Part shown: positions 4,697 to 64,000 of the stretch, one piece after another
Numbering within the stretch: position 1 is the stretch's first letter
Layout: every line of letters starts with the position of its first letter
Origin: Antedon mediterranea
Taxonomy: Eukaryota > Echinodermata > Crinoidea > Comatulida > Antedonidae
DNA length: 64,000 nucleotides
Direction: 5' to 3'
Assembly: GCF_964355755.1 (NCBI RefSeq)
Contig: NC_092672.1
Span: 24,548,501-24,612,500 of the forward strand
Position numbers and translations under genes: made by a program
The notes under the pieces: generated by a model
The model's input: only the letters and a program-made list of their open reading frames with translations
Databases searched by the model: none
What the model was told of the DNA's origin: nothing

Positions 4697-6213
4697 GTGT
4701 GCATTAAATCATTAAAGACGGTACTACTCATATTGTGACGTGTTGTGATGAATGCGATCGATGGGACGGTATGATTTATTTTTGCAAAGGTTAGATCAAC
4801 GTGTTGGTATAATGTGGTTCGGTTAAATCGTGGTACAGTACATGCTTTATAGATCGTAGCACCAAAGTACTTAATAACAATTGCTTGGTGCTCACGCCCG
4901 TGCCCGCGAAGTTGATCTTAAACGATTACAGCGATTGCAGAAACAAGGCTGTGTTTGCGTGTGGACGGTATCAGCCTTCGGATGGTTTATATTGAAATAT
5001 CTCGATTGGCTTCATATAAAAACAAGAATTGTGTACAAAATTATTGTTTTTGTTCATAAATGTATTTACTCTGTTTCCTTTATACCTTTTTTTATTTAAC
5101 CGTGATCCACTTTCATTTAATTTCGACTTCTCTCCTCTAATTGATCCCACCCGACTTTTCGTTGCACGATCTAATCGGAAAGCTGGGGACAATACTTTTC
5201 TATCACCTCTCCGCGGATCTGGAACGTAACGCGCTTCCTGTCGATTTAAGAGGAGCGAATTCGGCAACTCTATTTAAACATCAAAAACTTTTCTTTAATT
5301 AATAATAGGCGTACTAGTGTTGTTAGGCGCTCTGTTCATTGTAGAGGGCGCCTATACGAACTTATAGAATAGAATATAAATAAATATTCTTTTGAAACGT
5401 GTAACTTAAACACATCTGATATCAATGATCAGTGGCCTCTTGTACCTGACAATGATGGATGCAGCCTGTTTGGTTCTCATTGCTTTTTCTCAGTGGGTGA
5501 AAACGTATAGGAAGGTGCGTTCCTACTCTGTTTGGTTATCCAGAAACAATTCCCGTATCGGATGAGTGCTTTCAACGATGTAATGTAGACGCGGCAGTAT
5601 GTGAGCCATAAGTCGGTAGAAATCTTGTCGTATGCGACATGATTTGATTATCGTATACAGATGTGTGGCTGTTATCGTATGTTTGTGATACATCGTATTC
5701 TTATTTTGTTTTCTAAATAAAACTTTCTAGCCAAAAAAGAAAAAAAAATTGTCGTATGCAGATGTGTGTCTCTTATCGTATGTTTACAATGTTTTAATAT
5801 TTCTGTAATAACAAACTAAAAATCGTATTTTAATTTTTTAAATTATTTGTTATCTTTTTTTGATTTCTTACAAAGATGGGGATGATGTTAAATTGAAATT
5901 CATGAAAGCGCCTTGATTGATGCAAGCATGCAAATGTATTAGACACGGTCATAATAATATTATTGACAATGGTGCGTGCCATACTGTTCTTGATAATGAA
6001 ACAAACATTAAATTAACATAGCTAAACTATGAACACATCTATGGTCTTTCTCGTTATGCCTGGGGAAGCGATATGGAAACGGTAGTAAAACAGTGTTAGA
6101 ACATTGATCCCAAACAGGAATAATGTTGCTAAGATACGAAAAGGAAAAGCAGAAAACTCAAAGCATAGAATACTTTGAAGAGATTTGCAAAAGAGTTGTG
6201 TTGACCAGAGGCT
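4697..6213. other. Non-coding stretch with one more coding-like island
   Basis: No supported gene. A short frame near 5518-5610 reads CVPTLFGYPETIPVSDEC and then stops shortly after a few more cysteines. It may be another remnant of the same kind as 4553-4696. Around 5324-5355 a 7-bp inverted pair TAGGCGC/GCGCCTA forms a small hairpin. The rest is AT-rich. Confidence 0.35.
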
Positions 6214-6810
6214 ATGAATTGCATAGAGCCAGGCACTCATCGTTTTACGAATATTTATCGTACATCTGTATACGATAATCAAATCAATGGCATGTTGTTC
6301 CCAGAGCAGATTTACGGATTTCGAAAAGTATTGAGTTTCATGCATCAAACTATAGCACAACCAGAAGATTTGTTGAGAAAACCGATATTGAAACTGAAAA
6401 GGAGCACTTGGCAGTGCATCAAGAGCGTAGACCTTAAGGTTGATTTTGGCGAATTTATAGAAAATGCAAACATCGACGTCTTAACCATGTATCATAACGT
6501 ACTGGGTGGTATTAAACGTGAAATGAATAGAAAAGACAGTTTCCTACCAAACACTCTGTTCGATGTCATAGAGAACATTAATGTGCCACAGGGACTCTTG
6601 TGTCTTCCAAGGTCTTTTATAGCAGCCACACAGATGGCTATGCAAAAGGAATATAAATCTACCATGAAGAAATTACATCCCCACGTGACACCGGAGCTCA
6701 TACAAGAATATGCTACATTCACTCCATCGGACATTCTGAACGACACACGCATTTCTGAAAGGTTCTGTCTAAAGACAGCCATTCTTTTCTTGTTATTCGG
6801 CCGACTTTGA
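6214..6810 (+). CDS. Unrecognised 198-residue reading frame, copy A
   Basis: The frame is open for 198 codons and has non-repetitive, protein-like composition, with motifs such as LPRSFIAATQMAMQKEYKS and ELIQEYATFTPSDILNDTR. I do not recognise the family and can assign no function; no signal peptide or obvious membrane segment is present. The part from about 6260 on is duplicated at 11350-11900. Beyond the TGA at 6808-6810 the same frame continues for some 30 charged, protein-like codons (ERENPFICWDEEHNRLEEE), so the stop may be a decay mutation shared by both copies or a read-through site. The start ATG at 6214 lies outside the duplicated part and may not be real. It may be a fragment of a larger gene, a captured transposon or viral-type gene, or a pseudogene. 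Confidence 0.4.
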   Translation: MNCIEPGTHRFTNIYRTSVYDNQINGMLFPEQIYGFRKVLSFMHQTIAQPEDLLRKPILKLKRSTWQCIKSVDLKVDFGEFIENANIDVLTMYHNVLGGIKREMNRKDSFLPNTLFDVIENINVPQGLLCLPRSFIAATQMAMQKEYKSTMKKLHPHVTPELIQEYATFTPSDILNDTRISERFCLKTAILFLLFGRL

Positions 6811-6990
6811 CATTCGATAGAACGTGAAAATCCCTTTATATGCTGGGATGAGGAGCATAACCGACTTGAGGAGGAGCCAGCGTTTTCCGGGTTTTTTAAA
6901 ATTTGTACTTCAGCATTGTTGAAACATATAGCTTGCGTGCTTTCCTCACATATATAATAAACATATATCTAATAATAGTTTTTTATAATT
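6260..6990 (+). repeat. Segmental duplication, copy A
   Basis: Homology with 11350-12080 starts at GTACATCTGTATACGATAAT and ends at TAATAATAGTTTTTTATAAT, a constant offset of 5090 bp for most of its length. It is roughly 98% identical by eye. Copy B then continues into the LTR-like sequence at 12081, whereas copy A continues into AT-rich sequence. Confidence 0.9.
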
Positions 6991-11185: not shown

Positions 11186-11349
11186 TTTTTGTTAATTATA
11201 ATCACAGACAAAATGAGATTTTAGGCTATAGTAATCATTCATCATACCGTAAGCACATTTGTCATAAATGTAGGCCATACAACATTGGAATGTCGGTCCT
11301 TGACTCGCTACAGATTACCGTAGGTTAGAGCCTGTTTACACGTATGGGC
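11186..11349. other. Short unique spacer
   Basis: No feature seen other than AT-rich sequence and a stretch TTGGAATGTCGGTCC before the duplicated segment begins. Confidence 0.3.
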
Positions 11350-11900
11350 GTACATCTGTATACGATAATCAAATCAATGGCACGTTGTTCCCAGAGCAGA
11401 TTAACGGATTTCGAAAAGTATTGAGTTTCATGCATCAAACTATAGCACAGCCAGAAGATTTGTTGAGAAAACCGATATTGAAACTGAAAAGGAGCACTTG
11501 GCAGTGCATCAAGAGCGTAGACTTTAAGGTTGATTTTGGCGAATTTATAGAAAACGCAAACATCGACGTCGTAACCATGTATCATAACGTACTGGGTGGT
11601 ATTAAACGTGAAATGAATAGAAAAGACAGTTTCCTACCAAACACTCTATTCGATGTCATAGAGAACATTAATGTGCCACAGGGACTCTTGTGTCTTCCAA
11701 GGTCTTTTATAGCAGCCACACAGATGGCTATGCAAAAGGAATATAAATCTACCATGAAGAAATTACATTCCCACGTGACACCGGAGCTCATACAAGAATA
11801 TGCTACATTCACTCCATCGGACATTCTGAACGACACACGCATTTCTGAAAGGTTCTGTCTAAAGACAGCCATTCTTTTCTTGTTTTTCGGCCGACTTTGA
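11350..11900 (+). CDS. Unrecognised reading frame, copy B
   Basis: This frame duplicates the one at 6260-6810, with the TGA stop in the same place. I count about nine base differences over the shared frame, of which six change the residue (M/T, Y/N, L/F, L/V, P/S, L/F). That high share of replacements argues against strong purifying selection since the duplication. The frame is open upstream to about 11350 but has no convincing start codon; it can only be a fragment. No family is recognised. As in copy A, the frame after the stop continues as charged, protein-like sequence, until a homopolymer expansion (T12 near 11980) disturbs it. Confidence 0.35.
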
Positions 11901-12080
11901 CATTCGATAGAACGTGAAAATCCCTTTATATGCTGGGATGAGGAACATAACCGACTTGAGGAGGAGCCAGCGTTTTCCGTTTTTTTTTTTTAATTTGTAC
12001 TTCAGCATTGTTGAAACATAGCTTGCGTGCTTTCCTCACATATATAATAAACATATACCTAATAATAGTTTTTTTATAAT
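11350..12080 (+). repeat. Segmental duplication, copy B
   Basis: Direct copy of 6260-6990, about 5.1 kb away, with the LINE lying between the two. The match ends exactly before TGTAACTGCTC at 12081. Confidence 0.9.
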
Positions 12081-13009
12081 TGTAACTGCTCTTGGGCTCG
12101 GAGCAAGTTTGGAATGTAGAGGGCGTCGTTTAGTCAAGTCACACAAACGCGAACAAGGCAACACTATGACCATCAGTTAAACAATCTTCAATTTATTATG
12201 TTCCAACCGTGTCTGTCTGACTACCTTTATTAGTTCGTTCGGTGACTAAAATACAAAGTATAAATACAAGTTACCATAAAATAAAACTGAAGTAAAAGGA
12301 ATCATACAAATCGTCACAAAGCACATGTTATAATCGTCTAACATAAATTCCTTCATTATCGTCATCATTCAATGCTTACGCTCAATTATTATATTAAATT
12401 CCGTATTACTTAACTTCTTCAGTTACCATACTAATCATAGTAATACATTAAAATGGCAAACAATGTGAACAGTATCATCATCTGAATTACAGCACATACA
12501 AACAATTAATTAACATGTCAATCGATAATATGCATAGAACAAGTCCTTACGTGAATATGACCGCTCTAAGCCTCAAATCTTATGTCAATATTCTCCTTTC
12601 AAACATTATCTCAATTCTGTAACAATAATCAACATAAATATATTGATAGAAAATTGTCTAAAATATAACACAACACATGATAAATGCATAGGAAATGTCA
12701 ATTAAACTGATCATGAAACCATGATAAAACATGACTAAATCCTTCTCTAATTAGCACGCACATAGTTTAGTTTACTTAAACGACACAAAGAATGCCTTTA
12801 TTCATCCACAAGAAATATCTTGAATAATTAAGATAAGCAGAGATCCAGTAATTTAGTTAACCAATCATTAACCAATGGCCGAATGCATCACAATACAATA
12901 GAACTTCCCTGCATAGCTAATGAATATTCATGAGCTGAGAAATCAGTCAGCGTACCATGCTACAGCGGTAAGATCAAATATGATATTCAATACATGGAAT
13001 AGCTTAACA
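12081..13009. mobile_element. Possible solo LTR or LTR fragment (weak)
   Basis: The segment starts TGTAACTGCTC exactly where the duplicated segment ends and finishes ...AGCTTAACA, so it has the TGT...ACA ends typical of LTRs. On the minus strand an AATAAA-like hexamer lies about 110 bp before the end, a plausible polyadenylation signal for an R-U5 layout. I found no matching target duplication on the two sides and no primer binding site or internal genes. The start boundary is better supported than the far end. Confidence 0.25.
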
Positions 13010-17660: not shown

Positions 17661-20600
17661 TCATTCTTTTTGCTGCTTTTTTTTCCTCTCTTGACGAAGG
17701 CGACGGATGGCAACCATAGCCGATTTCCATTCTTTAAAAGTCACATCAGATGTTGCAGCACAATACCAATTTCCATAGTACTGAGTGTGGTTCTTATTTA
17801 ATCTTGGTTGCTTACACTTTGAGCACACAATCGCAGACGTTCTTGGTTTGTATATTTTGATCGGTTTCCCTTCCGATATGTCTTTAGCCACTCGTTTTCT
17901 GTACAAGAGGGTAGTTCTAGGAATACGAGTACTGCTAGCCTCAGGGACTGACGGTGGTGGTTTTGCTATCTCGCCAGGAACTGGGATCGACGGTCTGTTT
18001 CCTAGAGTCGCTAGGCCGGAAGTGTTTTTTGGTAGGACAAATGTGAAAGATGGAGCGCTTGTATGAACGTTTAGCACCGCTGGCTTGGTTAAAGGTTCAA
18101 GTAGGGTTTTATCAGAGACAAGTTTGGGTATTGTTGCCGAGATGCCAGATTCCAACACTTGCCGCTCTTGCTTCTTTGACGTTCTGTTGTACCTGTTGAA
18201 AATAAATCAAACACAGTATTTAAAAACTTTAATGTATTTACTGTAGCGTAAAATAACAATCAATAACAAGTAAAAACTCACCACTGGATGAGTGTCGTAC
18301 GATTTATCTCCATCAACTGAAGCTTAGCAAACAACATCAGGTGTCCATTCGACAGCACTTTCCGACGAATGTTCTTGTAGCCTTTGGTAATGAGCGGCCA
18401 GCGCTGGAAACGTTTACCTTCGATAGATACGGTAGATGGATACGCTTCACATAGTTTTGTAATAATGCACTCCATATATCGATTGCAGTCCGGCCACTGA
18501 GCTGGCCCGGTGTTCTGACCTAAGAAGCATCTTTTTTAAAAAAAACCGAAGAAACAAGTTAGATTTAAGACACATCATGCAACAAAGTAAAAAACGCTGG
18601 AAACTGCCTTACCGTCGAGTGCTTTCGACACCAGGTATTACGGAAGTAGTTTTACTTTTCTTGAACCTGCCTTTCGTCAGGTAATCTTGATGCCGTGCTT
18701 TGCGCTTAATGGTTTTGTCATAAGCATCCAGGTTGTTCCACAACTTTGCGACATGTTCAGCATGACTTTGACTTATCACTCCACTGTCTTCCTTAAACTG
18801 CATAAGGTAGTCTGCCAGGGCTTCAACTTTGGCGTAGCCTGGAATGTTGTCCGGTCCAGTGGAATCCTCAAGTTCCTAAATTGTAAAATATGAAAACAAA
18901 ATATATAATCAGACTCGTGCATTGTATTTCAAAACAGAAACAAAATTTGTGAGGTAGAACCTAATGATACAAATTTAACTCACTGTGTCAAAAAGGGCTG
19001 CTTTTCCTTGACCATCATCATCATTATCGTCACATGAAGGCAAGGGCTCCAGCTGGGGTGGTGAGGGTTCTTTAGCATTTCGAGGTTCAAAACAACGCTT
19101 AGGTGGTTTGTAGTCTGGTTGAGTCTTGTCATCATACCCTTCATCAACATCAAAAGTGTAAATTTCTTCATCAAAGTCTTCATCATAAATGGTATCTGTT
19201 TTGACAGGAAATTGAGTTTCGAGCACTTTGTTCGACTGGTTGTACAGGTACTCCACTCCGATGAGTTCTCCAGTGTACTTGTTTGGAATGATAAAACTTT
19301 TGTACACTTTTTTGCCAATCACTTGCTCTGCCAGTATGTTGAGAGCATGCTGATGCAGTCCACTATATGTACTGGAGATGGGTCCTCCAGACTGGGTAGC
19401 GGCTAGTGCACGGTTTGCATTCCATCGAACAAGTCCATCCATCAGGTAAGCTTGGAAATGTAAGTCGCTAGCACGCTCACCTGAGAAAAAAATAAAACAT
19501 CCATAATAATGAAATAATACAAAAATCTGTAGATCGGTTTGAAGATTTGGTAGATACCAAATAAAAAGTAATACTGTACCTGGAATAAACCTGTTAAGGT
19601 GAAGATGAAACGATTCCAAAGAAGTGGAGCCTCTTGCGCAACGATATACTGGCAAGGTAACTCCACCCTTAAGCATCTCACTGGTTTTTGTGTAGAGCGG
19701 GATGCCTTCTGGATCCTGGATGCAGGCGATGTGTCGCTCTTGTGAGCTCCAGATATCCCAGGTCTGTTCAGAGTCTAAGAGTGGGACGCCCATTGTGTCA
19801 CGGCCTTCTTCACCATCGAGGGAAGTCAGCAGCTCTCGGATTAGGTTGGCAGTCTCGCGAGTCATTCGTGTTGTCCTGCGACAATGTAAAGCATACTCCT
19901 TCTTGCTGATGTTTTTCAATATGATGTCGTCTGTTGGGTTGGAATGCTTCTTGCTTGCAATGAGCTGTTCACGCTTGGCGAGCTTCAGAAGTTCAACATC
20001 GTCAGCGCTCCACTCAAAAATGCAAGCGGAAAGACGTTTGAGAAATATCGGATACAACTGATGTGATTCTGTTGAACAAGCTGCAGCAATTCTCCTCATG
20101 AAGTGCCAGATGTCCAGACGAATTTTCATGTCAGGCCAGGCGCTGAACATCTTCCTTATGCTTGAATGACCGCAGCAGTCACGGTCGACGTAGAGAATCT
20201 CGGGAGGAGGTACGCCTGCCAAAGCATATCGGTTAATGATGCCGTTTGTCATGTTGTTTAAGCCACATCCTTCTGCAGCAGTCAGGACTGTAATGAGCAC
20301 CTGGCCGTACTCATTTCCGACGTTTGTTGCCCACGCTCCTGTTCCACATGCACGACCGGCTAGCTTCCTTACAATCTGCAAAAAAACCCAAACAAATTTA
20401 TTAGGAAGAAAGCTTCCCCACAATCTGCAAAAAAAAAAAAATTCAAATAATTAAAAGTAAATTGCAGAAATAGTATTGTTTATAAATTATTTACACTTTT
20501 GGTCGAGTCAATCTTCAACACTCTTCCGAACGTCGATGTGATAGAAGCCTTGAGTTCGTCGATTCTTCCCATTACTTCGTTGCAGTAGATGGTAAGGAAC

Positions 20601-22259
20601 CATTGGACAGAGGGAACAGGAATCATTTTAGACACCTCATCAAATTTAGAAGCAGCAATGACATAATCATCACGAGAACCACAGAACTTCTTGCAATTTT
20701 CTAAGTAGAGAGCCACTCTCTCATTCCACCGCCTTGTGTGTTGTTCTAAGACTTGTTGGCGAAGCTGTGATGGACTGTTACCGAGACCGCGGTACTTTAG
20801 AAGCTGCAGGACCCGGTTGTCGCAGGCCAAGTGATACGAAAGTACAACAGGAAACTGAAGGCGATGTGCTAAATCAAGTTGCTTTAAAATGTTTTCACTC
20901 CAGCCAATTTGTCTTTGTTTGCAATTAGAGCACCTCAGTTGCTCTGTTGCAAGAAAGTAGTGGCAGTCTAAATCCAGGACCGGACGAACGATTCCATGGA
21001 GGCCGCCTGATGTTAGTGGATAGCTCTTGCATTCTGGCCGAGGGCAGACCAGCTTGACCTGCCAAGTCTTGCGGGGCAACCAAAGAAGAAGACGATGACC
21101 GAAGTAACTGTTGGCCATGGGTATGTTTTTGTTGAGCGGATCCGGTTGAGGTGGATAATACCAAAGTTGTTTGAGTTTAGTTGAATCCAACTCTGCGGTC
21201 CCCTTCTTCGATTTCTTGAATAAGGTTTTTGAAATCCACTGCTGATCGATCTCGGGCAAGTTCTTCTTCCATTTATCTGGTATGAGACAATCTGCAAGAA
21301 AAACCAAAACAAAATTGTATAATTAATGAAACTACATTATGTAATTTTCATTTTCTAGTTTTAAAAATCAAACAAAATAATTAAAATTACACTGAAATAA
21401 ACTACCTTCACTCTGTTTGATAGTTATTGTAGTGTATGGCATAGTACTAACAGGTTCATAAGATGTATTTGGTTGAGCTGTAAGACGGAAAATTAAAGAA
21501 TATTTAGCAGTAAACTACTTTCATTCGCTATCTACAGTATGCTATAAAGCAATGTATTTAAACAACACGATTTTATGATTGAGTATAAATGAATGCATAA
21601 AAAAAAACGTAAACCCAGCAAGCCTACAACATACACAGGCACTAAAAATGCAAAACCTAAAATTATTAATTTAGAAAATGCACAAAAAACACAAATATGG
21701 AATAAGTCTCACCTGGTGCATATGAGGTTGATGGTTGCAAAGAAGCATCAAAGACATCAGTACCAGAAAGTGTTTCATCTGTGACATCCTCAACCTTTTG
21801 TAGCTTAATACCAACAGGTATGTACGATGTCTGTCTAGTTGGGCATTTCCTGCAGCGTTTTATTTCTTTCATTGCTATGGCTTCTTTGCCTTCTGGGAAA
21901 GACTCCAAGTACCTCTTAAAGTTGAATTTGTTAATACTAAGTGAACTTGTACTTGGAATTTCATTAGCCATTTTAATAACAAAACATACTGCATATTCCA
22001 GTACATTTTCGACCATCCACTTGAATGTTTGTCCACTGTATTTACTATGCTGAAACTTGTAGCAGCCCAACACATCACATTCATCTTTGGTGTTTCCACC
22101 CAGCCTGCACACCTCCTTCAAGGCATCTTGCCGTACATCATCAGGAGTTAGACACTTGCCAGTTGGTCGTTTTCTCAAGCTGTTAAATACTACAGCAGCA
22201 GATGTATCTTCAAGAATTAAGGCACCCTCTTCACTGCGCCGAAAAGTTGGTCTGAACAT
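17661..22259 (-). CDS. DUF6729 / D-D-E transposase-like protein, 8 coding exons
   Basis: Coding exons (minus strand, in order): 22259-21713, 21477-21406, 21291-20495, 20375-19580, 19480-18984, 18875-18613, 18530-18282, 18192-17661. All introns are GT..AG, phases agree at every junction, and the total of 3753 bp gives 1250 residues plus stop with no frameshift. Exon 1 has FKWMVENVLEYAVCFVI and a CRKC pair. Residues about 207-450 match DUF6729 (LWYYPPQP, LWLPRKTWQVKLVCP, YFLATEQLRCSNC, YHLACDNRVLQLLKYRGLGN). A transposase-like core follows: D468 (KIDSTK), D536 (YVDRDCC), D-x2-H at 560-563 (DIWH) and E726 (TSLESFHLHL). The C-terminus has an acidic stretch and a CxxC...H...C motif (CSKCKQP...GNWYC) before a Lys-rich tail. 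The start is the ATG at 22259, the first in frame. D(2)H-type cores are found in several cut-and-paste superfamilies; I cannot name which. It could be a domesticated gene, but the flanking inverted repeats favour a live transposon. Confidence 0.85.
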
Positions 22260-22352
22260 ACTGTACTGTCTATTGAACACCTGCAAAACTAAAAAAACTG
22301 ATCAAAGGCAAAAACATATGTAAGTAAAGTATGTGAAAAAAGAAAATTTTAC

Positions 22353-42504: not shown

Positions 42505-42690
42505 GTAACAAATTTTAAGAGCCATTGTCTGTAAAAATCAAAGATTTGGTGGCAGATGTAAAAAAATGGATTTCTCTCAAATTTTTACCATGAATAGACA
42601 TTTCACTAAAAAGCATATCTACATCATTCATTTGAATTTTTAGCCTCTGTTGCCATGACAACGGTCAATTCACAAGGCCATTCAGAGAAT
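42505..42690 (+). repeat. Dispersed repeat family R3, copy 1 (split by a LINE)
   Basis: AAGAGCCATTGTCTGTAA, AAAAAATGGATTTCT and GTTGCCATG(A/G)CAACGG appear in the same order as on the minus strand at 49560-49765. After the LINE, the sequence from 45093 (CCAAATTTTGATGTTTTTGC) continues the same repeat, so the LINE inserted into it. Confidence 0.65.
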
Positions 42691-42694
42691 CTTG

Positions 42695-45092
42695 TATTCG
42701 ATCGATGGGCCAATGGATAACTCAGGAATCATGGGAGGAGGTGTATTTGGCAGAATCAGGAGATAAAATGGCAGAAATCCTTGAAAATATACTAAAACAA
42801 AAATACGAAGAACATTTTCCGCAAAAAGTAATTCGACGACGAAATAATGAAAAGCCGTGGATGAACTATCGCATACATAAATTGATTGATGAGCGACAAA
42901 AGGCATATAGATCTAATAATATAAATTTATGGCGAAGCCTAAGAAACAAAGTAAAGTATGAAATTAACAAAGCTAAAGAGAAACATTATAAGGATAATAT
43001 AGAAGGACTAAAAAATGCACAACCCGGTAAATGGAATAAAACAATTAAAAACATTACAGGATATAACAATAAGTCAGACAATGTTAAATTAAATAATTAT
43101 GGTGAATCTGTTGAAGAACAGGCTGAACAAATTAATGAACATTTCTCAAGAGTATGTTGCCAGCTTCCACCACTCAGATTGGAAACACTTCCCTCGTACT
43201 TGCCTACAAAACCACCCCCCAAAATATACCATGGAGAAATTTGGAAGAGTTTAAACAAATTAAACTCCAATAAATCTGGCCACCCAGATGATATTCCGGT
43301 GAAACTCATTAAGCTGTTTTCTTTTGAAATAGCACAACCCCTGTTTTTAATCTTTAATACCTGTCTAAACGAAGGGGTGTTTCCAACTGTGTGGAAGACC
43401 GCATCAATTGTACCAGTACCTAAAGTTAAAAAACCGACAATGGTTGGCCAATTACGACCTATTTCACTAACTAAAATATTGGGTAGAGTATTTGAATCAT
43501 TCCTAGCGGGATGGTTAAAAACGGATTTCGAACCAGTATTGGATTGTAAACATATGGTAACGTGAGAGGAACTAGTACAACACACTACTTAGTAGATATG
43601 TTGAATACGGTTATATTCAATATTGATGTGCCAGGGACCTACGCCACATTATGTACAGTTGATTTCACAACTGCGTTTGATAGGATAAACCATAATGTTG
43701 CTATTTCAAAGATGATAGAATCTGGTGTTAGACCGTCGATAATTCCAACGATTAGCAGTTTTCTGATGAATCGCACCCAGTGTGTGAAATTTAAGGGACA
43801 TTGTTCTGGACTAAGAACTATAACGTGTGGGGTCCCCCAGGGTACCAAACTGGGACCCAGCATATTTACTGTTATGGTGAATGATGCGGGTAACACCACT
43901 GATAATCGTTGGAAATTTGTGGATGATCTAACACTGGGAGAAATAATTAATATAAAAAATAATAGTACATCATCAGAACTTCAATCCCATTTAGATTCCT
44001 TGAGTTGTTGGTGTAAACAAAATGACATGCTACCCAAGCCTTCGAAGTGCCTTGTTATTAATATAAATTTTATGAAATCCCAAATAAACTACCCCCAATT
44101 TACTATAAGTGGTGAAAAAATTGATACTGTACATAGTATGAAATTATTAGGTCTTGAGCTACAAGACAATTTAGGTTGGGATATCCAAATCAAAAGTATT
44201 ATCTCTAGAGCAAGTAGAAGAATGTTTCTTCTTTATGCATTGAGAGGATATAGTGCACCTATTGGTGACATGTTAAGTATTTATCAACTCTATATTCTAT
44301 TATACTTGGCCAGGACTATGAGAGCTATGATACGGCCCTTACTCAACTTAAAATTACCAGCCTTGCTGAACGTAGAGAAAAATTAACATTAAAATTTGGA
44401 GAAGGTATCCTTAAGTCAGAGAGACATCGTAATATGCTGCCTGCTGAAAGACCTAATATATCTAGATTACGTAACCCCAATAGATTTACATTACCTAAAA
44501 TAAAAACTAACCGATATAAAAATTCAACGATTCCCTATATTATAAACAAATTAAATTCCTCCTGTGAAAAATTAAATTTAAAAAATATATAATAAATGAT
44601 TGTGCAATATTACCGCCTAAAATAATCAAATGAAGAGCACTGCAGACAACGTTTAATATTAATATATACTGTAAACTTTTATTTTCCGAAATTTAATATA
44701 TTTTTGTAGATTTTTAATGTTGTGAATATTTTAGTGAATAATTGTGCAATGTTGCCACCTATACTAAAAGATAATAATAATAATAATCAAATAAAGAACA
44801 GTGCAGATAGGTTTTATTTTGGATATTTTAATGTAAATTTTTCGTTTTTTTTTAAATAAAAGTGCAATTGTATTTTCCAAAATTGTGTATATATTTTAAG
44901 ATTCTTAATATTTTAAATTTTAGTGAATAATTGTGAAATTTTGTAATTGTATATTCCGAATTTATTATTGTAGTTTTTATAGATTTCATTTCAATATTTT
45001 TTATTGTAATACAAACGTTATTAGCTATGTGCTATTGTTTTTGTAATTTTATATATACCGTAATAAATATAAAAAAAATAAATAAATAAAAA
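42695..45092 (+). mobile_element. Non-LTR retrotransposon, 5'-truncated, FVDD-type RT
   Basis: The insert carries the linker and RT parts of a LINE ORF, a 3' UTR of about 500 bp with repeated GTGCAATATTACCGCC-like phrases, and an A/T-rich tail of AATAAATA repeats at 45062-45092. It lies inside repeat family R3. The endonuclease region is absent. The left edge is estimated from loss of the R3 match and could be off by tens of bases. Confidence 0.8.
42705..44592 (+). pseudogene. LINE reverse transcriptase with FVDD active site, frame-broken
   Basis: Three frames are needed. Frame 1 (42705-43560): linker KYEEHFPQKVIRRRNNEKPW, then KLNSNKSGHPDDIPVKLI and GQLRPISLTKILGRVFESF. Frame 2 (from about 43560): YGNVRGTSTTHYLVDM, VDFTTAFDRINH, TCGVPQGTKLGPSIF and FVDDLTLGE, with the catalytic FVDD near 43916-43927 in place of the usual YADD. 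Frame 3 (from about 44305): ALTQLKITSLAERREKLTLK, ending LNLKNI-stop at 44592. Between frames 2 and 3 the usual RPILEYxxPVWHP segment is deleted. FVDD/YVDD variants define some LINE groups in marine invertebrates; the clade is not determined. Confidence 0.85.
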
Positions 45093-46423
45093 AAATTATC
45101 CAAATTTTGATGTTTTTGCCATTTTTCACAGATTTTCTATAGTGAAAAAGTACAAACTTGTATACTTATTTTAACCAAAAATACTTACAGTATACAGTTT
45201 TTGTTTGTAGCAGTGTAAACAACATGTATTGAGTTCTATTTAATGTAGAAAAAAAAATACAAAATGGAGTTTGGTTGATACCATTATTTTAAAAAGGGGT
45301 GTTTTTAAAAAATATTTTTTTTATAAAAGTATACCTCATAAACGTACCTATAACTTCCAAAGTGGTGTTTTTAAATCAATGAGGTTTTTTAATTTGATAG
45401 TCAATAGGTTTGTTAACAATACGGTAATCACAAAAAAAACACTGGGGTAAATTTTGTACATAGGTTTTGTTGCCAGGAAAATACGAAAAATACAAAAAAT
45501 ATAATAAAATATCAACAAACAAAACACATGAAACACAATTTAAATATGGCTAATCCAATAAAAAAATGTATATGTGGCTTGTCATAATGCTACTAGAGTC
45601 ATACGAATATTTTAGATAAAATAGGAGAATGTGTTGCCAGGTTTATTTCAATTAATTGCCAGAAAAACAGTATTTTGCATTGAAATATTTAGTAGGAAAA
45701 TGTTATGCCATTGGAATGTTAAACTTGGAAATAATTGCGTCAATGGTTTTTATAAATTTTTAAATCTATTTTGTGTAAAGAGATACAGAAAGACCTCCCA
45801 AAAAATCTGACCTTGTAAATAAGTCATTTAAGGTCAAAAGGGGTCAGAATGGAAAACAGGACAGGTCCCCACTTTACTACAACTATTAATGTTTGATCAA
45901 AATTTACAAGATAGTTCATAACAATTCTCAACAATTTTCATATTTTACCTATAGTGTTACCTTAGCAACCATTTCTATGTGTAGCTAAGGAAAGTAATTT
46001 TTAAAAAAACGTAAAAAATGGCGTTTTTATAAATACAAAGAATTGATTGCATTTGTAATTTTTCTCAATTTTACTTCAACTGCATTCCATTAATGACAAA
46101 CTTGACCTTGTAAATTCATTCATTTTGAGGTCAACATTTTACCATAGTAACTGTTTCTATGCGAAAATTTCAAACAAAATAAGGGGTTTTTCATAAATAC
46201 AAAACATTTTTTCTACATAGTTTTACATTTCTACTTTTTGCCAAATTTACTTTAAATACTGAATCATAATAATCTCAGAAAGAAAGTCTTGACGAATCTG
46301 AATAAAGGTAAAAAAAAATTAAAATATGGAGTTTTCATGAAAAAAAAAAAATTACATATTGAGGTCAAATGACATCAACATTTTACCTATAGTGTATTGT
46401 AGCAACTGTTTCTATACTAACTA
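45093..46423. other. Non-coding stretch, R3 continuation and degenerate repeats
   Basis: No gene supported. From about 45800 the sequence shows repeated phrases of the type TGACCTTGTAAA...GGTCA followed by ACCATAGTAACTGTTTCTATG (see 45800-48310). Confidence 0.4.
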
Positions 46424-47089
46424 CCGTACTGACGCGGGTATAAGCCCATACTCGGGTATAAGCCCACCCCCAACTTTTGACTAATTTTTATGAAAAATGT
46501 GGCACTCGGGTATAAGCCCACCCATTAATTCGAAGATCTACAGTGTGTGTCGTAATACATTATTTTGTATTTGGCGACGTCCATACACCGAATACACCTA
46601 CCTTTGATCATAACCAAGCTAGGCTAATATACGCTAGGCCATATGAGGCCTATCGGTCCTGTTTTGTTTACACTCCATCGCGGTCGAAGATCGCTTCACA
46701 CACGACGCTACAAGTCGCCAAAACGGAAAACCACTATTTGGTATCGGCTGCCATAAACAAGCTTATTAAATTTCTTTGGTACATTTCTATTTAACGAACA
46801 TTGTATACTTGCTTTTCTGCTTGATAAATTCTTGTTAAATTGATGTTTAAAATAAGATATTTTACGATAAATTACACGAACTATAAACTTAATTTTCCGA
46901 CACTCTACACCTCGTGTATTTAGAGGCAACGTTGTACACGTGAGGGCGCTCGCTCGCATGGTGGAATACACAGTGTACATGTAATGTTTTTGACGATCTG
47001 CATTTTTGGATCCTCGGGTATAAGCCCACCCCCAAACTTGACGTGATTTCATGTTCGAGGGGGGTGGGCTTATACCCGCGTCAGTACGG
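46424..47089. mobile_element. 666-bp MITE, TA-flanked, Tc1/mariner-like
   Basis: Both ends read inward CCGTACTGACGCGGGTATAA followed by GCCCA, an inverted repeat of at least 25 bp. TA flanks both sides (46422-46423, 47090-47091). Extra copies of CGGGTATAAGCCCACCCC lie subterminally on both sides. No transposase is encoded; TA duplication fits the Tc1/mariner superfamily. Confidence 0.85.
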
Positions 47090-47091
47090 TA

Positions 47092-47677
47092 AGTACAATA
47101 TTTTTAATATGGGGTTTCATGACTACAAACAATTGATTACATAGCTTTACTACCTTTTCCCAAATTTACTTATCTACTGAATCCCAGAAAATGTCTGACC
47201 TTGTGAAAGGGTCATTTGTTGGGTCAAGTTATGTCAAAATGTATATGTATATTTATGTTATCTTAGAACCTGTTTCTATGCATAACTAAGGATAATTGCT
47301 GCTCTAGCCCGCTACGTCACACGAGATGACTCATTCTTTATATGAAATCAAGCAGCAGTATAGTACTACACTTTGACATTTTTGTTAAAATGGAAACTCG
47401 ACTATAATTTATAGGTACCATCTGTTGAATCCAAAAAACGGCTGGGAAAGAGTCTAATGACAAATCCCAAAGCATTTCTGGTATTTATGAGTCCCATGAT
47501 ATTACTATAATTCACTGTCAAATAATCATTGAATTATTATCAAAACAGTCCATTGAAGTTTTTGTTTGTAATAGGATACTTGAAGTATCTAGGCTTGATG
47601 AAGTGACCCCCAGACTTGACCTTAGCAATATCAATAAGCAAGCAGCGTTTTTTGTAAGAAATATTCTTGTTTAAATA
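47092..47677. other. Non-coding spacer
   Basis: No coding sequence. Contains a unit of the degenerate repeat array (47190-47290). Confidence 0.4.
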
Positions 47678-48101
47678 CAGTTGAACCTCCCGTAAGTGGC
47701 CACCCTCGAGACCTGGAAAAGTGGCCGCTTATAATTGTAGGCCTGTTATTTATAATCAGGTGATTTAGTATTTTTTAGCATTTTCAGACCAATTTTAAAA
47801 ACTTTTATCATATGAAAAATGGTTGGTCAAAATCAGTGTAGTTTTCTCATCTCTTCACAGTAATGTTTTTAAAACCTCTTCAAAATAAAGCTAATATATA
47901 AAGAAATACAATAAACATGCACCTCTAATTCATAGGTTCATGCAATAAGTATCACATTTTTCGATTGGCCGCTTACAAAAAATCTCATTTTTTGTATAAA
48001 AAGGTGCCCGCAGCTGCTTACGGTAAGCACCAAATGCACTAATTAGATAGGAAGAACAAACAGGCTTTTCAAAGTGCGTCCGTTAAGGGAGGTGGCCGCT
48101 G
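47678..48101. mobile_element. 424-bp mariner-like MITE
   Basis: The left end CAGTTGAACCTCCCGTAAGT and the reverse complement of the right end CAGCGGCCACCTCCCTTAAC are imperfect inverted repeats, and TA flanks both sides (47676-47677, 48102-48103). GTGGCC and CCGCTTA motifs recur inside. CAGT.GAACCTC ends with TA duplication are typical of mariner-type elements. Confidence 0.7.
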
Positions 48102-48639
48102 TAAATAAAATATGGGGTTTTTATGAATAAAAATAATCACAGAAGAAAGTGTTTACAAATATGACCTTGTGAAACGGTAATTTGAAAATGCAAATAAGGC
48201 ATTGCCTGCTAATAATCTACAAATTAAAATTAAATTTGTATAAGATAAATAGGCAAAATCTAAAGAATATCTCAATTTTAGTTACCATAGTAACTGTTGC
48301 TATGCATAACTAAGGGAAATTCAATAATTATCAGATAATTATTAATTAATAATTAATACTGAATCCAACCATCATAGTAAAAAAAATATAGAAATTAAAA
48401 CCAATATTTAATAATAAAGTGTGATATTTTACATGCTGACCTTAAATGAAATGAAATTTCAAATCAGGGCTTCAATATTTGTTATGTAGCATTAACATAC
48501 CTGAGTATATCATTGACTTTTGATTGGTTCTATTTTGGGGAGGAAAAAGTGGTTGATCTAGGACTTTTAAATAGTTAGGAGGTTGAAGGCGAGGGTCTAA
48601 AAACTTAACTTTATGTCCTATCTTTTGCATTGCAATTTT

Positions 48640-48860
48640 TAACTTGGGGTGGGTGGGGGCTTGGAGAAAGGGGGAGGGGGTGGGATGTAGGAGTTTGAAT
48701 CTGTCTATTCATTGGGGCGATAGTAGCGGCAGTGTGGGTGGTGTTTGAATGCATGCATTTGACACTCTATAGTGGATGATCGACCGAAGTGTTGCAGTTT
48801 ATCTTGTTGTGGTTATAGTCAGGGTGGGTGGGGGGGGGGAGGGATGGTAGTCGAAAGTGG
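48640..48860 (+). repeat. G-rich low-complexity patch
   Basis: Several runs of three to ten G on the plus strand, e.g. GGGGTGGGTGGGGGCTTGG, GGGGGAGGGGGTGGG and a G10 run near 48830. The spacing would allow G-quadruplex formation. Confidence 0.7.
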
Positions 48861-49559
48861 TGGTGGATGGGCATGTGGGATCTGCTTAGGTTAGCAAATA
48901 AAAGAAGTAAACAAATGAAAGAGGAGCTTCAAAATAAGAGAGGAGTAATCTGTTGCAAAGATTAAAATTCACAACGATCTGATAATTTATTCAAATTTCC
49001 AGAGGATATAACCTATAGAATGACATTAAAACTGAGAATTACAGAATCTATAATTAAAAATTTATTTTTTTTTCTCACAACACAACTAGAACTATATAAA
49101 ATATTAAGAATTTTTCTGACCAATGAGTTTCAAATCAAATAATCAAAGAAAATAAAATGTTTTTATTAATATACCATGTTTTTTTTTTATAAAAATGCCT
49201 ATGTTTCTCGCAACACTGCTTGCAGATTTTAAATTTACCCCAGTATTTTATTTTAGAAATCAATTATTAAACATTGGAACTACCTATTTGTAATAAATCA
49301 GCTAAAAAAATACACCACTTTGTTCGTTATGGTGAAGTAAAGTTTAGTTGCATTGAACAATTTAAAAAAAGTGAAAAACACCCCTTTTTATATAAATGGT
49401 ATCTCCCAAAGTATGAAATAAAAAAAAATAAAAAAATTTGAAACAGGTGCACAATGCATTGTTATTATGCATACACTAATTATTTTTTATAAATAAATGA
49501 ACAAAACAAAAATATCGTTCATCAAGGTAGTACCAATATCCATTTTAAAAAACCTTAAA

Positions 49560-49765
49560 AAAGGACAAAATTTGTCAAAAACACAAATTTGGCCGTTGCC
49601 ATGGGAATATACATGTGAAATAAAAAATACTTCATATTTGATTTTTCTCAACACATATATAGCCATGTGCAAAATTTGAAAGAAATCCATTTTTTTGAGT
49701 CTGCCACTCTTTTTGATATTTCTTTGATTCTTACAGACAATGGCTCTTAAGTTGTATAATAATAT
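49560..49765 (-). repeat. Dispersed repeat family R3, copy 2 (inverted)
   Basis: Minus-strand reading gives AAGAGCCATTGTCTGTAAGA, AAAAAAATGGATTTCTTTCA and CCCATGGCAACGGCCAAATT, parallel to 42505-42690 and 45093 onward. Confidence 0.65.
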
Positions 49766-58301: not shown

Positions 58302-59000
58302 ATTATATAATATACAATAATAACAAAATATGATATTTTAATTAAGTTAAAAATGAAAAACTACAATGTGTATTCCCTTTGCGTACTGTAAACCCATTTT
58401 TTATTGTTGCAAAGTTTCAAAATGACGCAATGAACTTTACTGCGTCCATTGGATTGAATGTTAAATCGACCAAATATAAGTCCTGATAATGAACAGAACA
58501 GAGTATGCTCAGTATATTGAATAGAACAGAGTCTGCTCAGTATAATGAACAGAACAGAGTATGCTCAGTATATGTGCATAAGCATGCGCAGATTAATATT
58601 TTGTGTAGATTACCATATCCTTTCATCTACCGTCCACCTTCGTCTACCGTCCTGTCATAAAGTCGCTAGTAGTAGGTTTTATTGTAAATTCAGTGATTTC
58701 AAATTTTAACAGCACACCACATGCAACAGCTATACTAAATAGTAGTACTAATTATTGTCAGTATTTTCATTTCTATTGTAAATAAATAGTCAACAGATAC
58801 CTCTTAGAATCAGGCTTCTGAGTCATGTCAGGCATACATTCTACTCATTCACTCTTTATCAAAATTTGGGATTTTTAAAATGCCTTTCTTAATTTCCATC
58901 ATATATATTCATTTATGACTGACAATTTCATTCTTATAGGTTCATTCTACTGTAAAACAATAATACTCTCTTTTTCATTACATTCAGCCTCTTACATTAA
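58302..59000. other. Non-coding stretch left of the Kolobok element
   Basis: No gene. Holds a 28-bp x3 repeat (58487-58573). Ends with TTAA (58997-59000), the target site of the next element. Confidence 0.45.
58487..58573. repeat. 28-bp tandem repeat, three copies
   Basis: AGAACAGAGTATGCTCAGTA begins at 58495, 58523 and 58551 with one substitution in the middle copy. Confidence 0.9.
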
Positions 59001-59356
59001 AGTGGAGGTGTACTCAGGGCTTTTCCTTCTGTTATTTACTCCAGTATATTAATATTAGTAGGTACAAACATAAAAAATCATATCAAAATAAACAGTTTCT
59101 GAGAAATCAGAAAAATAAAAAAATGTTTAAAAATATCGAAAAATCGCTGTGTATTTTTTTCAGCAGTTAGGTAATGACCTTAGTTGTAAAGGTCACGTTA
59201 CCGTGTTATGTTACGTCACGTCTCCTCTCTCTCTCCTCGATATCGCTCGAGCTGTCAAGTCGCGCTACTACACGTGTATCATTTTCCGATCGAACGAACA
59301 TTTTATTATTGTCTTGCATTTTGTTATTACTTTTTGCGTCTACTCTTAGCTTCAAA

Positions 59357-59912
59357 ATGAAGCACTGTATGGTATATAAGTGCCATAACAAGTCACATAG
59401 AGATAAGGACGTCAGTTATCATCGCATGCCGCTGAAAAACAAGCAATTGATGAAGAAGTGGCTTGAAGCCTTGAAACTTAAAAATCCGCCACAGAAAGGG
59501 ATTCGCAGTGCCCACTTCGCGGAGGATGATGTACAGAGACAAGGGTAGAAAGACGATTCGCCCTGATGCTGTTCCAACACTGCATCTTGGTTATAAGATT
59601 CAATCGAGGCCGGAATCTTTTCGAACATCTAGCGTCAGCAGGCTTATGCCTAGTACATCATTATTTGAAGAAAATATTGAGGTATTTACTTTTATGTTTT
59701 GTTTATTAATTATAAATTTATAATATAATAAATAATAATTTCACGCTGATGGTAGGTATCTAATCTACTAGCCTATTTAGTATTATAATGGATAGCTAGG
59801 GCCTAGGCCTAGCCAGTATAGAATAGTTAATATAGGACTAGCCTATATTAATATTATACTATAATACTATACTACTCACTTGTCGGCCAGCTAGGCCTAA
59901 TAATATAATACT

Positions 59913-59947
<35 letters not shown>

Positions 59948-61883
59948 GATAATAGAATACTATTCTAGCATTCATAAATATAAATGCTACTGCTGGCTAG
60001 ACTAGAGAGGGGTAGGTTCCATGGTAGGCCTCTCTTTGATATCAAACACCATGAGAGATGCTGATCTCTTTTTCTTATGGTTATTATACTATACTCTATG
60101 GTTGACCTTGTTAATTACACTAATTAATTGATTAGTCTAATCTCTCTGTTTGAGACAATGGAAGGGCTGGAAGTGGGATGTGTTAATTATTATCACAGGC
60201 AGTATAGCCTATTCTGTGAAACTGTTTACTCTATGCCTTATACTTTACTAAACTGAATTTATTGATATTAAGTTGATAATATTGTCATTTCTGTATAATA
60301 AAATAGTATTACTGTAATGTAATGGTAATCAAACAAAAAGCAATGCAAAGCCATCCAGAAAACAAATACACTGGACATTATTTAAATGTTGTTTACATAC
60401 TTTTGTTCCCCAGGATATGACAACCTACAGGGAAAGCTGATTGTAGCTGGAGACTGTAGGCATGATTCGCCGGGCAATAATGCGACATTTGGGACCTACT
60501 CTCTAATGGATACAGATACCGATCTGATATTGGCCTCTAAGACGGTATCAGTAAATGAGGAGGGGATACCAAATTCTCATCATCTTGAAAATGTTGGTTT
60601 AAAAAGATGTCTTGAAGAATTAAAGGTTTGAAATCTTGTGTTTTTCTGTGCTACAGTAGATGTCATGTTTTCAGTAATTTTTGTTTTGTATAATGTAGAA
60701 AATACATACATGTTTATTGTTTTACAGGAACACAAACTGAATGTTGATATTATATCCACTGATCGCCACCCAATGATAGGAAAGACTTTACGTGAAAACT
60801 ACCCAGAGATAAAACATGAGTATGATATATGGCACCTTGCTAAATCTGTGAGAAAGAGAGTTGCAGCTGTAGGAAAGAAGCACAAAGAGTTGCAAGTGTG
60901 GGAAAAAGGCATCATTAACCATCTGTGGTGGTCAGCCGAAACCTGCCAAGGAAGTGTCACACAGCTCATTGTAGGGATTTATTAATGTAGAATGTTTAAT
61001 AATTAATCTCAAGCGACAGCAGTTTGTTTTAATCACTAATAATGCATTCTGAAATATATTTAACAACAGGAACGTTGGACCTCTATTGTGCGTCACATAG
61101 TTGATGAACATGATTGGATTTGTGGCTTCGAGTACATGAAGTGTAGTCATCCTCCACTTGAAGCAAACATGACAAAACCCTGGCTAACACCAGAAAGTGA
61201 TGCCCATAAAGCACTACAAGATATTGTTACAAATAATTTACTTCTGCGTGACTTGAAGAAGGTGAGTTATGCATTATGTATAAATAAATAGCTTTTCAGT
61301 ATTGTGTGCATTCACTGGAGGTATTATCATTAAGATAAATTGAATACAATTTTTAATTTACTGTATTTCTATTCAGGCAACAGAATTTTGTCACACTGGA
61401 AATTTAGAAGGATTCCATAACATGATGCTGAAGTACATGCCCAAACGTAGCAAGTTTGAGGACGAGGGAGCAATAGCTCGTACATATCTGGCTGTCATAG
61501 ACAACAACATGACATCGAACAGATCATATGCAACATTGGCCGATGGTGAAAGTCAATACCGTTTGGAGTGGTCCAAAAAATCCAGAATGTATGTGGTTAG
61601 GCGTGTGAAGGAAGCAAAGAAATATACCTTCAGGAAAGACTTGATGAAAGGTGTTTTTGACCGCGTCATCCACGGTTAGTTAATTGCTTTTAATCTGAAC
61701 TCTTCATCATGCAATGAAAGAATTTACAGTACTGTATATACACCTTTTTATGTATTTTACTTAACAACAGGCAAGAAGACTAAGTCTACCCTCGTGAAAG
61801 GAAAAATGAAGAGTTATATAAGGAAGGAGACAAAACCAAGTAAAGCTGAAGCTGTGGCAAGCCACAAGTCAAGATTGAAATAA
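59357..61883 (+). pseudogene. THAP-domain D-D-E transposase of the Kolobok element
   Basis: Exon 1 (59357-59681) encodes a THAP zinc finger: MKHCMVYKCHNK (C-x4-C), KKWLEAL, and SAHF where the third Cys ligand is replaced by Arg (TGC to CGC would explain it). A lost base near 59531 shifts frame into YRDKGRKTIRPDAVPTLHLG. Exons 60414-60625, 60728-60970, 61070-61261, 61377-61674 and 61771-61883 join in phase and encode the transposase core: D in [12 protein letters not shown] in ISTDRHPM, D-x2-H in YDIWHLAKSVRKR, NHLWW, and E in NLEGFHNMMLKY. The last exon is Lys-rich (KGKMKSYIRKETK). Exon 1 ends in phase 0 while exon 2 needs phase 1, and the region normally between THAP and the first D is absent, so an internal exon has been lost. 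It would have bound the TIRs and cut at TTAA. Confidence 0.85.
59915..59948. repeat. (TAA)n/(TTA)n palindromic microsatellite
   Basis: AATAATAATAATATTATTATTATTATTATT-type sequence in the intron of the Kolobok gene; the switch from AAT to ATT units makes it self-complementary. Confidence 0.85.
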
Positions 61884-62582
61884 GTGTTTACTACTGTTAT
61901 TACTGTACTGAAAATGGTTAATTTAATGCCTACAGTATATTGAATCGATTATAGATCTTCAAGATCAATGGCGAGTCCCATTTTAAGTTCATGTAAAATT
62001 TATACTGCTTTGATGTTATGATTTCATTAGATGGCATCTGAATTTCAAAAATTGGATGTTTCGTCACAGTTCATCACATTAATTAGAGCGTGTATCTTGT
62101 TATGAATTTTCTCCAAAATTGCATTCTGAAACAATTGCCTTTCACATCAAATTGTTTTCATAATAGTTGCACATAATCCTGTTTACAATGCTAATACTGT
62201 ACTGTCAACTGTTGAATGGTAGAAATTGCCTTCAGCTAGAGTAGAGCTAAATATTTTGCACAATAGTTTAACTTGTATCCATAATTGTTGATAGTTTTAA
62301 TTTAGTGTACTGTAACAAGTTAATTATTGTTAGTCAATATTTTTGAAAGCACTAATAACTGCAGTTTTTATTACAAAATAAAGATATTTTATTTCTCATA
62401 CTATTCACCATTATTTATTTCATTTTCTTATACATACATTAGTTACACAGTTATAACTACTACCGGTACAATATCAAACTGTAGTGGTATCATATTACAA
62501 GCAAATAATTTTGTAAAAAATACAGTACTGTACAGGTTATAAAGTACTAGAGGCAAGTGTTAAATGCATACAAACATTTATA
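61884..62582. other. Intergenic region between two convergent transposon genes
   Basis: Non-coding, AT-rich. AATAAAG at about 62377-62383 could serve as plus-strand polyadenylation signal for the transposase gene. Confidence 0.45.
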
Positions 62583-63417
62583 TCAACCATCGTCGGAATT
62601 AAAAGGAAGTCCATCCACATCTATAAATCCTGTATAGATCCCACTATCCTCCGGATATTTGTCTCTAATTGCCCATACGCAGCATGATGGAATAGGCCTT
62701 CTGTCGTTTTTTCTTAGTCGCGAATACACCCACCAAATGTAGCATCTGTATGCGATAAATCGATAAGTTCTGAAAATAAATAAATTTACAGTCAGCAGTT
62801 GGTCAAAATACAACTGGACAGGAACACACAATATGCAGTACACAGCCACAGTGGAAGGAGAGTATTAACATTGAATTAAATTGCATTAAATGTATTTTTA
62901 TGACCCTTGCAAATCGTTAAATTTTGCACTGCAAATAAAGACCGATATTTTGCTCGGAAATTTTAGATTTTTAAGCCCTATCGAGCGGCCGTACTAGGCC
63001 TACATACAATTATTACTAGCTAGGCCGGCGTACCTACCTGTTCTTAATTTCATCTTGTGTCACGCTCTCGCCAAGAATGTCCTTTTTTTGAGACATAAAC
63101 CAGCTCTAATACATCCTTGTCCATGCAAAGTTTTTTAAATTTCTCATTTATCAAACAGGTATTTTCTCCAATTTTGTCTTCTAATTCTACCCTCTCTCTA
63201 CAACAAACGCTCCCCTTTACATTCTTCTTACGGCAATTTCCACAATGACACCAATCAAGCGAGGTTAATCTCCATTCGTCTCTCTGTTGCTGGGGCCTAG
63301 GCTAGGCCTAGGCTGATTTACATCTTCGCCGTCGGCAGTTTGAGATGTTTGTATGGGCCTAGGTTCTGGTTCAAATGCATAACCATGTCTTTCAGGTCTA
63401 GGCCTACGATTAAACAT
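62583..63417 (-). pseudogene. P2X7-type Cys-rich C-terminal domain protein in the Kolobok element
   Basis: Exon 1 (63417-63038) starts MFNRRPRPERHGYAFEPEP and, after one frame change near 63300, reads EWRLTSLDWCHCGNC, GSVCCRERVEL, CLINEKFKKLCMDKDVLEL. A second change, at or near a T7 run (63083-63089), leads to KKDILGESVTQDEIKNR. The GTAGGT donor joins exon 2 (62769-62583): TYRFIAYRCYIWWVYSRL, RRPIPSCCVWAIRDKYPEDS, GIYTGF, stop. LDWCxCGNC...CC and the IPSCCVWxIRxxxP...YxGF ending are the hallmark of the zinc-binding cytosolic 'ballast' domain at the C-terminus of the P2X7 receptor. Free-standing versions without the channel are known from many animals. No membrane channel part is present here. 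Its role in the transposon is unknown; nucleotide or nucleic-acid binding is only a guess. Confidence 0.85.
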
Positions 63418-63998
63418 TGCCGTTTGATCCGTCTATCCACGCAATACAATCTTAATCTTAGACTTATTATTCGTATCCTAGTTTATCGAGTCGAGAAGAG
63501 ATCGATCGAGTCGAGCGCGAGGAGGATCGGCGGAGGCGGCGAGGAGAGGCGAGGCGAGTAAAGAAAGCCAACAGCTCGCGCATGCGCAAATTGATTGACT
63601 CCCTAGAAAGTAAAAATTACCCACTTGGCTCAAGTGGGTAGTTTTTTTAATTACGTTAATTACACAAAAATAAATTGGTCAACCCCTAAAAAACACATCG
63701 GGAAGGAAAAATTTGGCTTCCGAAGAATCTGAAAACATATATGTATAATATTTTTGGAACTTACATATATTTTTTACGATTTTTTTAAAACGCATCGTTT
63801 TTTTTCAATTTACATGCAAATGAATAGGGAAAAAGGTTTGTAATTTGAACTATCCCCCCAGATGGCATTTTTTGATGTTTTTCAGAATAACCATGCAGCA
63901 TACAACAAATTTAAAAAATACCTTAATTTAGATGAAAGTAATGTTTATTATGAACTGAATAAAATAAAAATGTGAAATTTTTTGAGAGCACCTCCACT
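63418..63998. other. Right subterminal part of the Kolobok element
   Basis: Purine-rich patch GAGTCGAGCGCGAGGAGGAT and GGCGAGGAGAGGCGAGGCGA lies at 63490-63560, upstream of the P2X7-like gene (a possible promoter region). Then come an AT-rich stretch and a hairpin at 63619-63639. No coding sequence supported. Confidence 0.5.
63619..63639. repeat. 8-bp-stem hairpin followed by a T run
   Basis: ACCCACTT-GGCTC-AAGTGGGT is a perfect 8-bp stem with a 5-base loop, followed by AGTTTTTTT. It sits between the P2X7-like gene and the right end of the element. Confidence 0.75.
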
Positions 63999-64000
63999 TT

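Follow-up and report, generated by a model that had tools for sequence, protein, structure and literature searches.

A probable Kol0-type Kolobok transposon of the crinoid Antedon mediterranea pairs its transposase gene with a P2X7-like ballast-domain gene

We analyzed a 64,000-nucleotide stretch of the Antedon mediterranea genome (C3:24548501-24612500; hereafter the window) and found that its positions 59001 to 63998 are very probably occupied by a Kol0-type Kolobok transposon of this crinoid. The genes of the element encode a transposase, which combines a THAP domain with an RNase-H-fold catalytic core of the Asp-Asp-Glu (DDE) kind, and, in convergent orientation, KolX, a relative of the C-terminal ballast domain of the ion channel P2X7. 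That P2X7 acquired its C-terminal domain from an element of this kind was already proposed in 2022 (PMC9587614). What is new here is the crinoid family, its numbers within one genome, and the repeated convergent pairing of the two genes.

Ends and genes of the element

The features of the element, in window coordinates, are as follows.

58997..59000, no strand, left TTAA target site, read in the window sequence
59001..63998, no strand, probable Kol0-type Kolobok DNA transposon of 4998 bp, from its ends, TTAA sites and gene content
59001..59016, + strand, left terminal inverted repeat, matching the right end at 14/16 positions with the first 10 identical
59357..59681, + strand, transposase exon with the THAP domain (PF05485, 5.2e-11), with donor GT, one internal frame break and one THAP cysteine changed to arginine
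60414..60625, + strand, transposase exon with the first Asp motif, from the alignment with P0001, splice signals and conserved columns
60728..60970, + strand, transposase exon with the second Asp (TDRH) and the D-x-x-H motif (DIWH), from the domain scan, alignment, conserved columns and splice signals
61070..61261, + strand, transposase exon with a conserved Cys/His stretch (KCSH), from the alignment, conserved columns and splice signals
61377..61674, + strand, transposase exon with the last catalytic Glu (TGNLEGFH), from the alignment, conserved columns and splice signals
61771..61883, + strand, last transposase exon including the stop, from the alignment to the P0002 C terminus and acceptor AG
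62583..62769, - strand, KolX exon 2, C-terminal part of the ballast domain (IPSCCVWAIRDKYP) including the stop (PF20478, 1e-12; P2X7 PDB chains, 8.1e-8), with acceptor AG
63038..63417, - strand, KolX exon 1, LDWCHCGNC region (PF20478, 1.6e-4; P2X7 PDB chains, 3.1e-4), with donor GT and a frame broken twice
63983..63998, - strand, right terminal inverted repeat, an inverted match to the left end

The first bases of the element are AGTGGAGGTGTACTCA, starting at 59001, and its last base is 63998. In the assembly, the ends were located at C3 24607497-24607510 (+) and 24612489-24612502 (-). The terminal bases are AG and CT, in agreement with the 5'-RR and YY-3' ends given for Kolobok elements in PMC9587614, and TTAA flanks the window copy on both sides, as is expected of the Kolobok target-site duplication. 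The right TTAA is made up of 63999-64000, where the window itself shows TT only, and the next two bases of the assembly. A preliminary description of the window, made from its letters, had proposed a Kolobok element with a TTAA at the left, 14/16 inverted ends, a THAP/D-D-E gene and a convergent two-exon ballast gene between the ends. Sequence and domain matches confirmed all of these, and the assembly supplied the completion of TTAA past the right edge that it had expected.

We then compared the ends with chance, using 74,559 TTAA/TTAA pairs lying 0.3-9 kb apart in the whole window, with the element's right end added by hand because its TTAA is cut off by the window edge. Inverted ends agreeing at 14/16 positions or better were found in three pairs: those of the Kolobok element, those of a second likely element, and a short pair that is palindromic. 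First-order Markov simulations (40 runs) gave 0 or 1 such pair per run, with a mean of 0.125.

The exons of the DDE core match the proteins P0001 and P0002, and their introns are bounded by GT and AG. The closest relative of the core is P0001, an Antedon mediterranea protein representing a cluster of 5 member sequences (99% identity over 80% of the query), with proteins of the crinoid Anneissia japonica following as the next named relatives. The TDRH and D-x-W-H columns are invariant among 10 relatives, and the window copy carries DIWH and LE. Kolobok transposases have a zinc-finger stretch with four ligands between C/D-x-x-H and E; in the Cys/His stretch seen here, a candidate for it, C267 and H269 are invariant in our alignment A1. 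The transposase pieces also matched MULE at 3.2e-4, which is below the cut-off of Pfam. When the predicted fold of P0001 (mean predicted local distance difference test score, 74.6) was searched with Foldseek, the best matches were the transposases of ISCth4 (1.5e-5) and of the P element (8.2e-4).

Convergent to the transposase gene inside the element lies KolX. From its sequence, KolX is a small, cysteine-rich protein of the ballast family, exon 2 scoring over the cut-off of Pfam P2RX7_C (PF20478) and exon 1 falling slightly short of it, with 22.1 bits where 23.5 are required. The CxCxxC motif, the CC pair, a single C and the C of IPSCC are all present in the KolX pieces of the window. We compared these with the seven zinc-ligand cysteines of the P2X7 ballast: CxCxxC, the following C in GENTC and the last C of KolX are aligned with P2X7 cysteines, and the CC pair, in the alignment of exon 1, is shifted relative to that of P2X7. 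The residues of the P2X7 ballast that bind guanine nucleotide are R546, H547, R574, R578 and K583, according to PMC7016195. Arginines equivalent to R546 and R578 were kept in 7/7 KolX exon-2 families aligned, and the KolX of the window has other residues at the positions of H547, R574 and K583.

The window copy is decayed. KolX exon 1 spans three frame segments, i.e. it contains two frame breaks; the same exon is open in one frame in two other copies, L011 and L020, and copies with both KolX exons open exist. The THAP exon has one frame break and an arginine in place of a THAP cysteine that is present in L010, L011 and L033. The window transposase also lacks the part corresponding to P0001 1-91, which would precede the first Asp motif. 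Over its full length, L010 aligns colinearly with the window copy (98% identity) and has the same internal deletion, and at the deletion point L011 carries about 730 bp extra, including the P0001 1-91 segment; the L011 transposase contains an in-frame stop. Among the copies read, no fully intact element was found. Judged by its reading frames, the window copy probably makes neither protein intact. It shares one deletion with L010, which sits at a different TTAA site, so the simplest explanation is that the deleted form was mobilized by enzymes supplied from other loci.

Copies of the family and ballast-domain loci in the genome

Other copies were sought in the assembly (354,431,138 bases in 18 contigs) with TTAA+AGTGGAGGTG, which has 31 exact sites. 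When one mismatch was allowed, 193 sites were found versus 177 for a reversed control pattern, and the one-mismatch sites that we examined come from 100 of the 193. These numbers suggest that further copies with changed ends are likely and that most one-mismatch sites are background. The copy counts below cover the copies read; other transposase-bearing pieces, e.g. the one behind P0012, lie outside the count.

Among the copies read, 12 at different sites are two-ended: the window copy, L010-L019, and L020, which has one mismatch in one end. All are flanked by TTAA on both sides, TTAA having been part of the search pattern. Three of the 12 (the window copy, read as L009, L010 and L011) contain the DDE core, and convergent KolX is present in 3/3. 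At each of these loci, which are on three different chromosome-scale contigs, transposase and KolX share a single TTAA-bounded unit, with identities to the window copy of 98% (L010) and 93-98% (L011). L020 contains KolX, but of the transposase gene it retains just the beginning of the THAP exon. The remaining 8/12 copies are derivatives of 545-2356 bp that lack both the DDE core and the KolX domain, although fragments of KolX exon 1 survive in five of them. The preliminary description would have been refuted by copies that consistently lacked the P2X7-like gene; the gene is present in every two-ended copy read with a core, the eight short copies lack both, and a C6 copy without it, described below, is truncated.

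At a further seven exact sites, single ends were retrieved (L028-L034). Each of the seven showed partial similarity to the element; neither the DDE core nor KolX exon 2 was found in their first-read stretches. L029, L030 and L034 resemble further short derivatives, with both sides present. In L033 (C6), an end and part of the THAP exon are split by about 3.8 kb near the left end, and the transposase continues in the adjoining L070 as far as element position 2581, which is also where P0001 stops. Of the four transposase-bearing copies read, KolX is present in all three that are two-ended; the fourth breaks off within its transposase gene.

Three of the short copies, L016, L017 and L019 (C7, C9), have common flanking bases, TTTTGCCA and TATCATCC, with L019 reversed. 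Since the flanks are the same, the three probably occupy one site within copies of another repeat. The exact AGTGGAGGTG site of L021 belongs to an unrelated TTAA-containing element without the genes of the Kolobok element. The AGTGGGGGTG-ended elements L022-L026, together with L021 (one AGTGGAGGTG end) and the part-read L027, L035 and L036, were rejected as relatives, as they have no DNA or protein match to the Kolobok element. A longer flank around TTAA is common to the six compared (L021-L026), one base being different in L022. In a minisatellite at C1:451462-452208, AGTGGAGGTG is repeated mostly every 26 bases, so that the 10-base end alone is a poor copy probe.

Next, we searched the assembly with KolX exon 2. 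There were at least 74 matches (E up to 0.01) at about 68 loci, including the four of the window family; matches within 3 kb were merged, and the counts are lower bounds. To the best 30 of the 74 matches we added about 1.5 kb of flank on each side, which merged into 26 loci; these 30 are the matches closest to the window KolX, and the sample leans towards its kind. Kolobok transposase similarity was found at 20/30 of these matches, or 19/26 loci, and each of the 19 loci has a convergent pair. When the four loci of the window family are left out, 16/22 ballast loci are paired with a transposase. The orientation was convergent at 19 of the 20 paired matches, the exception being L042, which adjoins the convergent L043; at L041-L043 the transposase part is short, 32 residues. 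Three loci were read over longer distances. At L067, a convergent transposase/ballast pair lies inside a TTAA unit of 5.3 kb with ends that match at 15/16 positions, and at L068 a pair lies within long inverted repeats containing several TTAA pairs, the true ends not being fixed; the third, L069, is described below. Among seven families, the KolX exon 2 pieces are 41-75% identical and the transposases 18-69% identical on shared columns.

Elsewhere in the window, TTAA-bounded ends with 16/16 inverted agreement (GAGCCATTGTCTGTAA) lie 7.2 kb apart at 42519-49746, and reverse-transcriptase-like frames were recognized by eye inside this unit at 42636-44386; it is probably another TTAA transposon, in which a retroelement is nested. 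A run of frames on the minus strand at 17661-22301 includes a DUF6729 protein (PF20499, 6.9e-81), a cysteine-rich frame and a 491-residue frame without a Pfam match, and is perhaps another large transposon. A 0.73 kb duplicate with 97% identity occurs at 6259-6990 and 11349-12081, within 6 kb.

Relation to known elements and genes

According to Kojima & Bao 2022 (PMC9587614), Kol0 Kolobok families encode KolX as a second gene, KolX has the ballast fold and matches human P2X7 476-595, and P2X7 is proposed to have arisen by fusion with KolX. The present element resembles Kol0, of which Kolobok-1_XT is the type in that source, in its TTAA target, 5'-RR...YY-3' ends, D-x-x-H DDE transposase and KolX. 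Unlike the Kol0 elements described there, its host is a crinoid and the window copy is decayed. The family was compared with named families by description only, and may already be catalogued in Repbase.

KolobokP, KolobokE, KolobokD and KolobokH belong to the same superfamily and likewise have an accessory gene. KolobokP was rejected: its long terminal direct repeats (about 450 or 660 bp) are missing from the element, and a comparison of the element with its own locus returned itself and one short internal inverted match. KolobokE, KolobokD and KolobokH were rejected because their accessory domains were not found in the exon pieces scanned. No nuclease domain (including the His-Me finger of KolobokP), helicase domain or piggyBac domain was found in the exon pieces scanned with Pfam; piggyBac, which also uses TTAA, was rejected on the THAP and Kolobok-like core seen in these pieces instead of a piggyBac domain.

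Both KolX exons match the P2X7 C-terminal ballast (PF20478), with the CxCxxC, CC (out of register in the alignment), C and PSC motifs and the equivalents of R546 and R578 in common; unlike P2X7, the KolX of the element has no channel or membrane part. The free-standing ZCD/nanor genes are short, ballast-only animal proteins, as described in Rump et al. 2020 (PMC7016195), which reports that a species has fewer than 10 free-standing ballast genes and that these were ancestrally linked to two markers. In contrast, we found about 68 loci in one genome, many of them beside Kolobok transposases. The main text of Rump et al. 2020 contains no word beginning 'transpos'.

Several points limit or weigh against the reading of a Kol0-type element with KolX as its accessory gene. 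The probable placement in Kol0 comes from gene content compared with published descriptions. Searching protein databases with the KolX read-through yielded 37 candidates in one case and 1 in another, but none passed. No transposase was found within the 1.5 kb flanks at 7/26 ballast loci (10 matches: L039, which equals L020; L047/L048; L049/L063/L064; L058; L060; L061; L062), L061 having a convergent THAP match. L069, with a 147-residue ballast frame at 4980-5423 (-), is one of eight identically scoring genome matches in a lower-ranked multi-copy group, and no Kolobok transposase was found there in 9 kb; with its repeated candidate inverted ends, it is perhaps a KolX-only element. In the fourth transposase-bearing copy (C6, L033 and L070), the 6.4 kb that follow the point of truncation showed no KolX, no right half and no right end. 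Finally, the divergence of KolX and transposase was correlated over the seven families (r 0.58, p 0.033), but this depends on one close pair, L051/L059, without which r is -0.14; we therefore dropped co-divergence as support for a partnership of the two proteins. Viral-contig and genome-contig scans confirmed no relatives.

The role of KolX and its meaning for P2X7

Could the two genes be chance neighbors, or could a transposon have inserted beside a P2X7-like gene of the host? Adjacency at a single place would fit such an origin, and no other support for it was found. Both genes lie in one TTAA-bounded unit at the three loci described above, colinear with the window copy, and a background control of window 1-58990 gave no match to any of 21 transposases tested or to the KolX pieces; we regard such an origin as practically discounted. 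KolX could also be cargo, i.e. a ballast gene captured, once or repeatedly, by the element's ancestor and having no role in transposition. KolX can evidently be lost, 8/12 two-ended copies read being without the domain; it occurs without a transposase at L020 and L069, and the distances of the two proteins do not agree once the close pair is left out. Nonetheless, the convergent pairing recurs in several families that have diverged as far as the identities given above, Kol0 families elsewhere carry KolX according to PMC9587614, and pieces of KolX exon 1 persist in 5/8 short derivatives. Taken together, we consider pure cargo very unlikely. The proposal of the preliminary description that ballast genes spread as transposon cargo stands in so far as they recur beside Kolobok transposases, but KolX is the usual second gene of Kol0 and not an occasional passenger.

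For a Kol0-type Kolobok element with KolX as its second gene, the family suggests the following mechanism. The transposase would bind the element ends through its THAP domain, excise the element and join it to a new TTAA. KolX would be an accessory protein, retained with the transposase since it is helpful to transposition, a role that we propose because KolX is found repeatedly in the company of the transposase.

The P element transposase, a relative in fold of the Kolobok transposase, uses GTP (guanosine triphosphate). Because of this, and because two arginines are conserved in KolX, the accessory role may perhaps be one of guanine-nucleotide binding. In its full form, the idea would be that KolX is a cofactor that senses guanine nucleotide or delivers it to the Kolobok transposase, that the ballast of P2X7 with its zinc and guanosine diphosphate is this part reused, and that the 'ancestral synteny' of 2020 consists partly of transposon neighbors. 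We think this combination unlikely; if true, a nucleotide-sensing part of a transposon would have been reused in the immune ion channel P2X7.

These crinoid data lend support to the published view that a transposon gene gave rise to the C-terminal domain of P2X7, the vertebrate fusion event itself lying outside them. They also show that the free-standing ballast genes of a genome need not form a small host family but can be many and located next to transposases, which changes how synteny and trees of these genes are to be read. In view of the number of loci counted here and their transposon setting, the linkage reported in Rump et al. 2020 (PMC7016195) would seem to merit re-reading. KolX proteins, in turn, offer a way to ask what the domain does, both in the transposon and in P2X7.

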